46,272 bases of DNA from Gemmatimonadota bacterium (lineage in GTDB: Bacteria > JAAXHH01), in the NCBI GenBank assembly GCA_009835325.1, contig VXWP01000037.1:1-46272 (forward strand). Reading direction: 5' to 3'. This document shows positions 4,268-8,211 of the stretch, in pieces (the stretch's first letter is position 1; every line of letters starts with the position of its first letter). The notes under the pieces were generated by a model. That model searched no databases. It was not told the origin of the DNA and was given only the letters and a program-made list of their open reading frames with translations. The position numbers were made by a program, and so were the translations under genes.

Positions 4268-5767
4268 TCAAACGCCCAGCATCCGCATCATCACCGTATA
4301 TGCGAGCACGGTGATCAGGATCACGCCCAGCAGGTTCAGCCAGAACCCGGCCCGGATCATCTGCTGGATCGTGACGTGCCCGGACCCGAATACGATGGCG
4401 TTGGGCGGGGTGGCGACCGGCAGCATGAAGGCGCAGCTGGCTGCGATGGCGGCCGGCACGATCAGCATGAAGGGGTGCAGGTCGAATACCGGCGCCAGGG
4501 CGGCCAGGATAGGGATAAACGTGGCCGTGGTGGCCGTGTTGCTGGTCAGTTCCGTGAGGAAGATCACCAGCGCGATGACGGCCATGACCAGCAGCAAAAC
4601 CGGGATGCCGGACAGGATTCCCAGTTGGTGCCCGATGTATTCCCCCACGCCGTTGATACGGATCGCCGCCGCCAGGCTGAGCCCGCCTCCGAAGAGCAGC
4701 AGGATTCCCCAGGGGAGCTTCAGGGCCGTTTCCCAGTTCATCACGAACACCCGCCGTTTCACGTCCACCGGCACCACGAAGAGGACCAGGGCCGCGACCA
4801 TGGCGATGACCGGATCGGACAGGCCCGCCAGTGGGTGCATGTCTCCGATCTGGACGCGCACCAGCAGCGGCCTCGCAATCCAAGACAGGGCCGCGAGCAG
4901 GAACACCACAAGGACGACCCTTTCCCCACTCGACATCACGCCCAACTCCCGGTATGCCCTTTCCGTCACTTCCCTGCTCCCCTCAATGCGCTCACCCCGC
5001 AGGGGATAGAGGACCCGGGTCAGCATCAGCCAGGCAATCGGCAGGAAGACCGCCACCAGGGGAAGCCCCACGCCCATCCAACGGACGAAGCTGATCTCCT
5101 GGCCGAGGCTGGACTGGATAAAGGAGGCGAGGAAGACGTTGGGGGGCGTACCGATGATCGTGCCGATGCCGCCGATGGACGCCGCGTAGGCGATGCCCAG
5201 GAGGAGGCACAGGGCGAAATGAGGGCGCGCCTTTGTTCCGGGTTCCACCTGCTCCACCAGGCTGATGATGCTTAGCGCGATGGGCAGCATCATGACCGCG
5301 GTGGCCGTGTTGGACACCCACATGCTGAAAAAGGCCGTCACGCCCATGAAGCACGCCACGATGCCCGCCGGATGATCGCCGGCCGCGCGCAGCGCCCTGA
5401 GGGCAAGACGTCGATGGAGCCCCCAGCGCTGCATGGCCAGGGCAATGAGAAAGCCGCCCATGAAGAGGAAGATCAACTCGTGGGCGTAAGGCGCGGCCGC
5501 CGCACGCACCGATGCCGCGCCGGTCATGGGAAGGGCGACCAGCGGCAGGAGCGCCGTGGCGTAAAGCTCCACGGCCTCTGTCATCCACCAGACCGCCATC
5601 CACGCCGCCAGGGCCATCGTGGCCCGGCCCGCGTTCGAGAATTCGACCGTCTCGCCCGCGCTGTTCGGGTACGCGTGGGGCAGCAGGCCGTAGAGCAGGA
5701 GTGCCAGCGCGGGACCGGCGATCAGGCCGATCCACTGGATGGTGGTTTTGAGTTGGAGGGATCTCAC
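4268..5767 (-). CDS. SLC13/DASS-family sodium-coupled anion (dicarboxylate-type) transporter
   Basis: A 499-residue polytopic inner-membrane protein. It shows the two inverted-repeat signature motifs of the divalent-anion:sodium symporter family: SNT at about 152-154 followed by GTPPN at 206-210, and SNT at 409-411 followed by ATPPN at 452-456. These loops form the sodium and carboxylate sites in characterised members such as VcINDY. Length and hydrophobic pattern match full-length members. Substrates in the family are C4-dicarboxylates, citrate or sulfate; the sequence does not decide between them. Its stop is 3 bp upstream of the FtsX permease start, suggesting translational coupling. The closest upstream gene (rhodanese) is on the opposite strand, so the promoter must lie between about 5768 and 6035. 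Confidence 0.9.
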   Translation of the reverse strand: MRSLQLKTTIQWIGLIAGPALALLLYGLLPHAYPNSAGETVEFSNAGRATMALAAWMAVWWMTEAVELYATALLPLVALPMTGAASVRAAAAPYAHELIFLFMGGFLIALAMQRWGLHRRLALRALRAAGDHPAGIVACFMGVTAFFSMWVSNTATAVMMLPIALSIISLVEQVEPGTKARPHFALCLLLGIAYAASIGGIGTIIGTPPNVFLASFIQSSLGQEISFVRWMGVGLPLVAVFLPIAWLMLTRVLYPLRGERIEGSREVTERAYRELGVMSSGERVVLVVFLLAALSWIARPLLVRVQIGDMHPLAGLSDPVIAMVAALVLFVVPVDVKRRVFVMNWETALKLPWGILLLFGGGLSLAAAIRINGVGEYIGHQLGILSGIPVLLLVMAVIALVIFLTELTSNTATTATFIPILAALAPVFDLHPFMLIVPAAIAASCAFMLPVATPPNAIVFGSGHVTIQQMIRAGFWLNLLGVILITVLAYTVMMRMLGV

Positions 5768-6035: not shown

Positions 6036-6431
6036 ATGAAAAACCAGATCGCACACTATGAGAACAAGCTGAAATATGAGACCGATTCCTATGACCTCTG
6101 GGAATCCATCACGCTGGGCAAGGACGTCGTCGTGGTAGACGCGCGGTCCGAGGAAGCCTACGCGGAACGCCATATCCCCGGCGCCGTCAATATCCCTCAC
6201 CGGACCATGGACGCAGAAACCACGGGCCATCTGGACAAAAACACTCTTTATGTGACCTATTGCGATGGGATCGGCTGCAATGCGTCGACCAAGGGCGCGC
6301 TTAACATGGCCAGGCTTGGTTTCAACGTGAAGGAACTAATGGGCGGCCTGGACTGGTGGATGAGAGACGGCTACGAGACCGAAGGCCTGCAGGCCACCGA
6401 AGGCAAAGCACTGGTCTGCGGTTGCGGTTAA
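6036..6431 (+). CDS. Single-domain rhodanese-like protein with Cys-rich tail
   Basis: A 131-residue protein with one rhodanese fold. It has the CH2A-type motif VVDARSEEAYAERHIPGA at 34-50 and the active-site loop YCDGIGCNAS at 75-84; C76 is the expected persulfide-forming cysteine and C81 a second cysteine in the loop. This loop type (C-x-G-x-G-C-N) occurs in a recognised rhodanese subfamily and differs from the CxxGxR loop of GlpE or PspE. The C-terminus ends CGCG, adding two cysteines. The start at 6036 is set by GGAGG just upstream; in-frame codons back to 5739 are not conserved-looking. The 268-bp stretch upstream (5768-6035) carries no gene I can support and should hold promoters for this gene and the divergent DASS transporter. 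Likely role: cytoplasmic sulfur transfer or cyanide/thiosulfate detoxification. Confidence 0.85.
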   Translation: MKNQIAHYENKLKYETDSYDLWESITLGKDVVVVDARSEEAYAERHIPGAVNIPHRTMDAETTGHLDKNTLYVTYCDGIGCNASTKGALNMARLGFNVKELMGGLDWWMRDGYETEGLQATEGKALVCGCG

Positions 6432-6469
6432 AACGAGTTACTTCGTTAACTACCAGCCTGGCGGGATGA

Positions 6470-6616
6470 CTACACCTCCCCATCCCGCTTCCCCATCCTC
6501 CGAAACAGCGCCCTTATATCGCCCAGGGCGCCCACACTGACATACACTGCCACAACCGCAAACAGTAGCAGGCAAAGCACAAAAACCACCGCCCAGAACG
6601 TGCTCCAGAATTCCAT
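6470..6616 (-). CDS. 48-residue single-pass membrane protein coupled to the sodium/solute symporter
   Basis: A short gene starting MEFWSTFWAVVFVLCLLLFA and ending RRMGKRDGEV. It has one hydrophobic helix (about residues 4-31) followed by a short basic cytoplasmic-looking tail, consistent with the positive-inside rule. Its ATG shares one base with the TGA stop of the symporter gene (TGATG at 6618-6614), and GGAGGAG lies directly upstream inside the symporter end. The overlap and strong ribosome binding site make it a real, translationally coupled gene. Small one-helix partners encoded with SSS-family symporters are known in other bacteria (for example the YhdT/PanF and YjcH/ActP pairs), so an accessory-subunit or stability role is reasonable inference. 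I do not recognise a named family for the sequence itself. Confidence 0.75.
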   Translation of the reverse strand: MEFWSTFWAVVFVLCLLLFAVVAVYVSVGALGDIRALFRRMGKRDGEV

Positions 6617-8211
6617 CACGACTCCTCCCTCCGAACCGGGCGAGCCGGACGCTCCGAACGGTCCGTGCGCTCAAGACCATCCGCACGGGCCAGGCGCTCC
6701 ACACGGTCCGGGAACAGTATCGACCCGGCAAACATGAGGACCAGGGCCAGCGCGGTGATGGCCAGTCCGATCTCGTCGCTTTTATACATGCCCAGTCCCA
6801 GCGCCTGGTTCACGGGTCCCAGGCCCGCCAAGGCGCCGATGCCCGCGGTGAGCGCAAGGTAGGCCCCCACGGTGCTCGCCCGCTTCCAGTACAGTCCGGC
6901 CAGCAGCAGTGTGAAGGCGCCGGTGAAGTAGATGGCGCCGCTCACGGCCATGTAGTCCCACAGGTCCTGCCCCAGGTCGTACCAGAGCCCCCATACCAAC
7001 AGGAACAGTCCGATCACGAGGATGAAGACGCGCGACAGCGCCAGGCGCCAACGGGTGGTGAGCCGCTCGTTCGTGGCCGGGGCCACGACGTCGTGGGTCA
7101 GCACCGACGCCCAGCAGAGCAGGTAGCTGTCGTGGGTCGACATGAAGGCGGCGAGGAGCCCCGCGCCGACGAGCCCGATGATGCCGGTTGGCAGGATCTG
7201 GGACAGGAAGAGGGGCATGGCCTGCAGCGTCACCGTGGGGTCGGCGGTGGGCGACCCGGTTTCATCGAAGAAGAACCCGCGGAACTCGGGGTTGTTGAAG
7301 AAAAACGTGAGCGCGCAAATGCCGAGGAACTGCGGGATCATGAACCGGATCAGGAAGCCGATGGAGGACCACCGGTACAGCCTGCGCACCACTTCCACGC
7401 TTTCGGCGGCGCAGGCGCGCATGACCGAGGTCTGCCACACGGCACAGGACACGAGGCCCGCCGTGAAGATCATCCACATGATGTAGGAGGGTCCGAAGCC
7501 GCTGCCCTCCAGGAAGGGGTTAAAGCCGGACTCACCGTGAACGGCCGCCACGGTTTCGACGATGGTCGGCCAGCCGAGAGCGTACACCGCCATGCCACAG
7601 GTGAGGATCATGCCGAAGGAGAGGACCACGAACTGGATATAGTCGGTTATCACCACCGAGACCATGCCGCCCATGATGGTGTAGGCGATCACCAGCGCGA
7701 GCATGACGGTCATGACCACGGCGACAGCGTTGGGATCGGTCAGGCCCGTCAGGCCCGTCACGAACAGGGCGCCCGCTTTCAGGAACAGGCCCATGTTCAG
7801 GATGCCGGCGAAGGCGAGGAGCAAGCCGCCGAAGACGCGCACGCCGCGGCTGAACCGTTTCTCGTAGAACTCGGGGATCGTCATCACGCCGAGGCGGCGC
7901 AGGGGCACCACGATGAAGCCCGTCATGCCCACGATGAAGGTCACGACGCCGGCGATGACCGCGATGTGGAAGGCCGCGAACCCGCCCGTGAACCCCTTTT
8001 GGGCCGAGTACATGACCGTCACCAGCCCGAGCTCGCTCCCGATCATGGTCGCCACGGCCAGGCGCGACTTGAGCGACCGGCCTGCCACGATGTAGTCCCC
8101 CATGTCCCGGATGTACCGGTTCATGTACAGGCCCACGCCGACGGTGGCCGCCATGTACACGGCGACGATCAGCCAGTCCAGGGTACCAAAATTCGTGGGG
8201 AGAGACGGCAT
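6616..8211 (-). CDS. Sodium/solute symporter (SSS family, SLC5-like)
   Basis: A 531-residue polytopic transporter with about 13 hydrophobic segments. Family features are TLDWLIVAVYMAATVGVGLY at the first helix, the conserved G-R-S-L region (GDYIVAGRSLKSRLA), GVMTIPEFYEKRFSRGVR after the loop between helices, and GLLAAFMSTHDSYLLCWAS, which includes the Ser-rich sodium-site helix. The open frame extends to 8388 but would then overlap purB; ATG 8211 places the first helix at the expected distance, although its ribosome binding site is weak. Solutes in the family include sugars, amino acids, carboxylates and nucleosides; the specificity is not evident. The last 30 residues (LARADGLERTDRSERPARP) are a degenerate tripeptide repeat from a 9-bp-period DNA tract. 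The 82-bp gap to purB holds two copies of CGCAGGCGCGC 15 bp apart (8261-8286). Confidence 0.88.
   Translation of the reverse strand: MPSLPTNFGTLDWLIVAVYMAATVGVGLYMNRYIRDMGDYIVAGRSLKSRLAVATMIGSELGLVTVMYSAQKGFTGGFAAFHIAVIAGVVTFIVGMTGFIVVPLRRLGVMTIPEFYEKRFSRGVRVFGGLLLAFAGILNMGLFLKAGALFVTGLTGLTDPNAVAVVMTVMLALVIAYTIMGGMVSVVITDYIQFVVLSFGMILTCGMAVYALGWPTIVETVAAVHGESGFNPFLEGSGFGPSYIMWMIFTAGLVSCAVWQTSVMRACAAESVEVVRRLYRWSSIGFLIRFMIPQFLGICALTFFFNNPEFRGFFFDETGSPTADPTVTLQAMPLFLSQILPTGIIGLVGAGLLAAFMSTHDSYLLCWASVLTHDVVAPATNERLTTRWRLALSRVFILVIGLFLLVWGLWYDLGQDLWDYMAVSGAIYFTGAFTLLLAGLYWKRASTVGAYLALTAGIGALAGLGPVNQALGLGMYKSDEIGLAITALALVLMFAGSILFPDRVERLARADGLERTDRSERPARPVRREES

Follow-up and report, generated by a model that had tools for sequence, protein, structure and literature searches.

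Does the short open reading frame (ORF) which follows an SSS symporter gene in this Gemmatimonadota contig encode an overlooked partner of the transporter? Within the window, by which we mean the whole 46,272 nucleotide stretch that was analysed, the frame lies at 6470..6616 on the minus strand, is read from 6616 to 6470 and comprises 48 codons and a stop; its assignment as a small membrane protein gene draws on the sequence itself, its homologues, dN/dS and a match to the tails of fused proteins. The 48 aa product, MEFWSTFWAVVFVLCLLLFAVVAVYVSVGALGDIRALFRRMGKRDGEV, is laid out as one hydrophobic helix followed by G-A-x-x-D-I-R and then a basic tail. The gene starts within the stop codon of the symporter, in a TGATG (6614..6618, minus strand) in which the symporter TGA (6618-6616) and the ATG of the small gene (6616-6614) have the A in common, and a Shine-Dalgarno-like site, AGGGAGGAG (6622..6630, minus strand), lies within the 3' end of the symporter gene, five bases ahead of this ATG. 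The original prediction had pointed to both the ribosome binding site and the 1-bp overlap, and its coordinates for the gene were right; the strand, which it did not give, is minus. Through the TGATG, translation of the small gene is presumably coupled to that of the symporter gene.

The symporter gene itself is found at 6616..8211 on the minus strand. Its product matched the SSF family (PF00474) with 111.7 bits (cut-off 22.8) over 406 of 406 profile positions and has 13 transmembrane (TM)-like segments by hydropathy, while the NCBIfam superfamily model TIGR00813 gave 145.9 bits, which is under its cut-off of 184. The mechanical ORF extends to 8388, where it begins with a TTG; we place the probable start at the ATG at 8211 because relatives begin MPSLPTNFG. 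An adenylosuccinate lyase gene lies 5' of the symporter gene on the same (minus) strand and a convergent rhodanese-domain gene lies 3' of the small gene. A second sodium-coupled transporter gene, belonging to Na_sulph_symp (PF00939), was found at 4268-5767 (minus strand), and a PF00939 protein is likewise encoded 3' of the pair at another locus (L005, + strand). None of the five other SSS genes in the genome from which the window originates has a matching small partner; a hydrophobic ORF does lie 194 nt from one of these, but it looks unrelated.

We scanned genome contigs with the symporter and obtained 80 related loci (53–96% identity, 48–98% residue coverage). The original prediction had proposed looking for conserved small frames after homologous symporters and, using a profile built from six small ORFs, we found a homologous small ORF directly 3' of the symporter in 74 of these 80 loci. 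The record titles of these loci include Latescibacterota, Gemmatimonadota, Planctomycetota, Verrucomicrobiota, Armatimonadota, Acidobacteria and others. The start of the small gene is ≤ 20 nt from the symporter stop in 71 of the 74 loci, 21 of the homologues overlap the symporter gene by 1 or 4 nt and 64 are preceded by an SD-like motif. Over the first 43 codons, the dN/dS of the small gene was 0.020–0.089 against eight close relatives, and it was 0.20 against a more distant relative, values which are rough because dS was saturated in several pairs. Judged by these substitution patterns, the small peptide is under strong purifying selection. In an alignment of 75 members M1 and W4 are invariant and W8, L16, V26 and G29 are conserved at ≥ 90%, while the last residues of the separate small proteins are variable. 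Conservation along the helix is periodic at 100 degrees (permutation p = 0.0006).

It could be argued that a frame which is this short and is covered by no curated family arose by chance and serves no function. However, comparable ORFs (35–80 aa with a 19-residue hydropathy > 2.5) were obtained from 34 of 20,000 random start zones (0.17%; 41-nt zones from both strands of the window), and this rate, the 74 loci and the low dN/dS led us to reject a chance ORF, for which the probability is negligible. The small ORF almost certainly encodes a real protein and is presumably translated.

The six loci which lacked the small ORF are of different kinds. Four of them (L018, L052, L068 and L069) stop at the symporter stop or earlier, at contig ends. 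At L025 the small gene is apparently reduced to a remnant (2470-2560), behind an SSS gene which still reads 510 aa; a piece of this remnant, reading FHTLDVQHQEKEEI, resembles the end of the protein at L028. This may represent a recent loss of the small gene, and because the symporter appears to be intact while the small gene is a remnant, such a loss may be tolerated. In the last case (L055:4560-4809) the final helix of the symporter is truncated and followed by a different frame, which we take to resemble the start of a transposase, making an insertion into the locus probable.

A conserved frame in this position might also serve only the translation or stability of the symporter mRNA, with a functionless peptide, in the manner of cbrX, described in PMC9100948 as a small ORF co-transcribed with cbrA. 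The tight coupling through the overlap would suit such a role, as would a hairpin-like stretch at the end of the small gene: a 9-bp hairpin at 6430-6500 (minus strand) overlaps the gene end, between the two convergent genes, though this region folds no better than shuffled sequence (z = −1.05, not significant). However, it is the peptide which is under purifying selection and whose conservation spans records titled with several phyla, the small ORF sits 3' of the symporter rather than 5', and the helix also occurs as a domain of fused proteins (described below). We therefore consider a role confined to the mRNA to be very improbable.

To see how widely the helix occurs, whole genomes were searched in six frames with the small-protein profile. 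Matches were found in 13 of 16 genomes from the phylum of the window and, in samples from the phyla of five relatives on which they were centred (records titled Phycisphaerales, Verrucomicrobia, Gemmatimonadota, Acidobacteria and Armatimonadota), in 23/246, 39/194, 40/64, 18/247 and 17/151 genomes. From 195 distinct match rows 134 were examined with their loci, the 14 rows of the own-phylum search being left out. Of these 134 matches, 83 were ORFs of their own, next to an SSS gene and on its strand, and 45 shared a reading frame with an SSS domain, i.e. they were natural fusions. Six matches were neither: three were cut by contig ends (L107, L116 and L184) and three had no SSS gene (L221, E = 1.2e−5; L226, E = 4.9e−4; L227, E = 9.6e−4), the latter probably being chance matches. 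The small helix is thereby shown to be associated near-exclusively with SSS genes. A tblastn search of plasmids with the consensus peptide gave no match.

Two groups of matches are worthy of mention. Six loci (L120, L122, L124, L126, L127 and L128) carry divergent separate small ORFs beside an SSS gene, which begin MYLWMSIWT, have V-K-x-E-L in place of the G-G-x-x-D-I-R part and score 22–34 bits against the profile. In the Verrucomicrobiota-centred sample, four genomes (G367, G438, G286 and G314) have four or five matches each in long open frames, which suggests an expansion of fused-type SSS paralogues.

We also examined the 27 genomes of the own-phylum sample (of 16) and the sample of 64 in which the small-protein profile found no match. 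None of them contains a symporter ≥ 70% identical to that of the window. They do contain five SSS genes at 42–47% identity to it, each with a helix ORF of 45–59 aa lying 1–22 nt past the stop. These five ORFs scored 26.0, 22.1, 18.0, 12.0 and 7.6 bits against the profile (control peptide: 0.7 bits); three of them are likely to be relatives and two are uncertain. As genomes without a match lack symporters at ≥ 70% identity, and as these five more distant genes carry helix ORFs, the helix seems to be close to obligate in this clade.

The natural fusions allow the relationship between the helix and the transporter to be looked at directly. The fused SSS proteins (L163-L177, L179-L182 and others) have a homologous SSS core with the helix at the C-terminus. 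In a set of 20, of which 19 were full length (625–810 residues between stops) and one was truncated on the 5' side, the best match of the small-protein profile fell within the last 110 residues in every protein; a control with the reversed profile gave negative scores only, in 3 of the 20. Two fused proteins had 15 TM-like segments by hydropathy, compared to the 13 of the window symporter: the small protein is homologous to TM15, which an extra TM14 precedes. An alignment of 36 fused tails matched the small family with an hhalign probability of 98.3 (E = 1.3e−14, 50 columns), a comparison which is partly circular because the tails had been collected with the small-protein profile. For this reason we carried out a reciprocal search with a profile of the fused tails against 9,379 six-frame ORFs from the 80 loci; 70 of the 74 small proteins were recovered at E ≤ 1e−3, the best other ORF having an E value of 0.3. 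The window ORF (in L089) scored 34.9 bits (E = 2.4e−9). The reversed control, and the fact that the C-terminal position in SSS proteins was not selected for, answer the circularity only in part. Against PDB sequences the fused-tail profile gave only chance-like matches (best E = 0.23).

The conserved face of the helix in the fused tails is within about 31 degrees of that in the small proteins (p = 0.015). With its match to the tail profile and its position beside an SSS gene, the window protein belongs to a family of terminal helices which exist in split and fused form. The fused forms are a strong and independent argument that the small protein is a partner of the symporter, and the original prediction of an overlooked single-helix partner of an SSS subfamily is supported by them together with the 74 loci and the dN/dS values.

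A tree of 84 SSS proteins (built by a quick maximum-likelihood method) placed the fused proteins in one branch (SH-aLRT 99), made up of 27 fused proteins and one row labelled split (L153_split), which by its coordinates is a neighbouring fused gene cut by the end of the locus. The split proteins formed another branch (SH-aLRT 95) consisting of 46 proteins and three in which the small gene was missing or cut off. These two branches are neighbouring clades, joined at 99. Seven SSS rows labelled as helix-less stand apart on very long branches; the label is provisional for one of these, the second SSS of L039, which is cut at the locus end.

We consider the best explanation to be that the small protein is a detached terminal helix which acts as a mainly structural subunit of the 13-TM symporter, and we give this reading as a whole a probability of roughly 0.78. 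A structural subunit is probable because related transporters carry this helix fused to their own end. The helix which forms TM15 in the fused sister clade would here be supplied as a separate 48-residue protein, with its translation coupled to that of the transporter, and TM14 would be missing in the split form. The positive-inside rule relates the pattern of charges to membrane orientation; as the start of the small protein is uncharged and its end is basic, it is suggested that the inserted protein has its N-terminus on the outer and its basic tail on the inner side of the membrane. Such an orientation fits the position of a fifteenth helix, because a 13-TM core ends inside, TM14 exits and TM15 re-enters. 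One conserved face of the helix, formed in window numbering by W4, W8, L16, F19, V26 and G29/G30, would then rest against the surface of the symporter; one-sided conservation with a period of 100 degrees is what packing of a helix on a partner should produce. Physical contact with the symporter is what these patterns point to, and the small protein is very probably a subunit which docks on it.

Whether such a subunit supports or switches the transporter is a separate matter. The small protein could be a free, condition-dependent regulator similar to AcrZ, MgtS or MgtU, binding reversibly and altering the activity or turnover of the symporter; in size and topology it is like the known small regulators of bacteria which are reviewed in PMC10710835. 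However, the closeness of the small-gene start to the symporter stop (71 of 74 loci) suits a fixed ratio of the two proteins, and in the 45 of 134 matches in which the helix is permanently fused it could not come and go. We therefore find a regulator of this kind unlikely, and for the docked subunit a mainly structural role, rather than a switch-like one, is slightly favoured.

The part of the protein beyond the helix raises a further alternative, which is that the helix is a subunit serving mainly to recruit another component of the cell through its cytoplasmic tail, be it for protease protection or to bring in a membrane partner or a signalling protein. A segment following the helix, D/N-I-R-x-L/M-F/L, is kept in both split and fused forms, and the fused tails end, after the last helix, in a conserved acidic D-D-G-x-V, both of which speak for recruitment. 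This motif is absent from the separate small proteins. Against recruitment, the end residues of the separate proteins vary, and no common third gene accompanies the pair: among the flanking ORFs scanned (81 of the 140 chosen), the most common family was URO-D, with 15, followed by APH (n = 7), GDSL lipase (n = 7), DUF5107 (n = 5) and GFO_IDH_MocA (n = 5). Recruitment as the main role is therefore rather improbable, if less so than reversible regulation. These flanking genes give hints of sugar or glycoside use in some lineages, while no theme common to the 81 ORFs was found and they do not reveal the substrate of the symporter. In many Planctomycetota loci a URO-D-family gene (PF01208) lies closely 3' of the small gene, for example at L029:4661-5914, L033:1797-2966 and L049:4733-5905.

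For a structural subunit the closest parallel is MAP17 (PDZK1IP1), which is described in PMC10803289 as an auxiliary subunit of human SGLT2; its single TM helix packs on TM13, it moves with the static bundle domain of hSGLT2 and it aids the folding, stability or surface expression of the transporter. By analogy, the docked bacterial helix may be a static support which helps the folding or stability of the symporter or acts as a scaffold for it. The likeness, a single TM helix accompanying an SSS/SLC5 transporter, is one of architecture and not of sequence, and a profile of the 75 members searched against all PDB chains found no relation to MAP17. In contrast to the small protein, MAP17 is eukaryotic and encoded apart from its transporter. 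The fused sister-clade forms differ in turn from the window protein in carrying TM14 before the helix, in the two proteins with counted segments, and D-D-G-x-V at the end; we know of no fused form of MAP17.

An AlphaFold2 model of one pair (L056), read through the symporter stop, had a mean pLDDT of 79.6 and a pTM of 0.79. The small part was modelled as one helix (517–557) with a pLDDT mostly of about 60–79, and the linker was below 50. Foldseek found SGLT1/2-MAP17 complexes as the top matches of the symporter part, and the nearest folds of the whole pair model were SGLT-MAP17, CHT1, SiaT and DUR3 structures. Matches to DUR3 and vSGLT extended to the small helix (model residues up to 548–560) and those to CHT1, SiaT, NIS and most SGLT ended at 500–531, but as the ranges give the first and last residue only, no conclusion was drawn from these ends.

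Several small subunits of sodium symporters are known. For SSS transporters these are DUF4212 proteins with the VC_2705 type, YjcH (DUF485) with ActP and YhdT (DUF997) with PanF; these proteins, and those of DUF3311, have two helices. MetS, of Corynebacterium, is a short single-helix small subunit of the NSS transporter MetP. DUF3311 is reported beside MctP in PMC9100948. As in the DUF4212, YjcH, YhdT and DUF3311 systems, the small membrane protein gene of the window adjoins an SSS gene, and as with MetS a short single-helix protein is encoded with a sodium symporter. Unlike the members of the four DUF families, the window family has one helix and no profile match, and it differs from MetS in having a partner from another transporter family and in showing no sequence match to it in the family scans. 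When the 75 members were scanned singly against Pfam and NCBIfam (E ≤ 0.1), 22 Pfam and 9 NCBIfam families appeared in all, with no credible match. Membership of DUF4212, DUF485, DUF997 and DUF3311 was rejected, as 0 of the 75 members matched any of them. Hits to DUF4190 (window protein, E = 0.0079) and DUF2621 (27 of 75 members, best E = 0.0019) were under the curated cut-offs where cut-offs were shown, and we read them as similarity between hydrophobic helices. The only match of the 75-member profile at E ≤ 1 among all PDB chain sequences was a cytochrome oxidase subunit (E = 0.86). The small protein is therefore covered by no curated family model in the libraries searched (Pfam and NCBIfam). 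The original prediction had stated that its topology matches known small symporter partners, which holds for the general topology only, as there was no Pfam or NCBIfam match to the known small-subunit families. We found no description of the small-helix family in the open-access papers searched, which does not prove its absence from print.

Gene finders usually overlook small membrane proteins, and for the majority of those discovered so far no partner is known. Here a direct test would be easy, because the small protein has a partner, a sister clade with a single chain and strong selection. Our tentative suggestion, to which we give somewhat less than even odds, is that an SGLT-like bacterial SSS clade depends on a fifteenth helix, either fused or provided as a free protein of 45–70 residues, a functional counterpart of MAP17 in bacteria. 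If this is true, the need for an accessory terminal helix would recur among SLC5-fold transporters rather than being peculiar to mammals. Should the symporters require the helix for activity, their heterologous expression without the small gene would not succeed; many transporters of Planctomycetota, Verrucomicrobiota, Gemmatimonadota and Acidobacteriota would be affected, and the contribution of MAP17 to SGLT2 could be tested in a bacterial pair.
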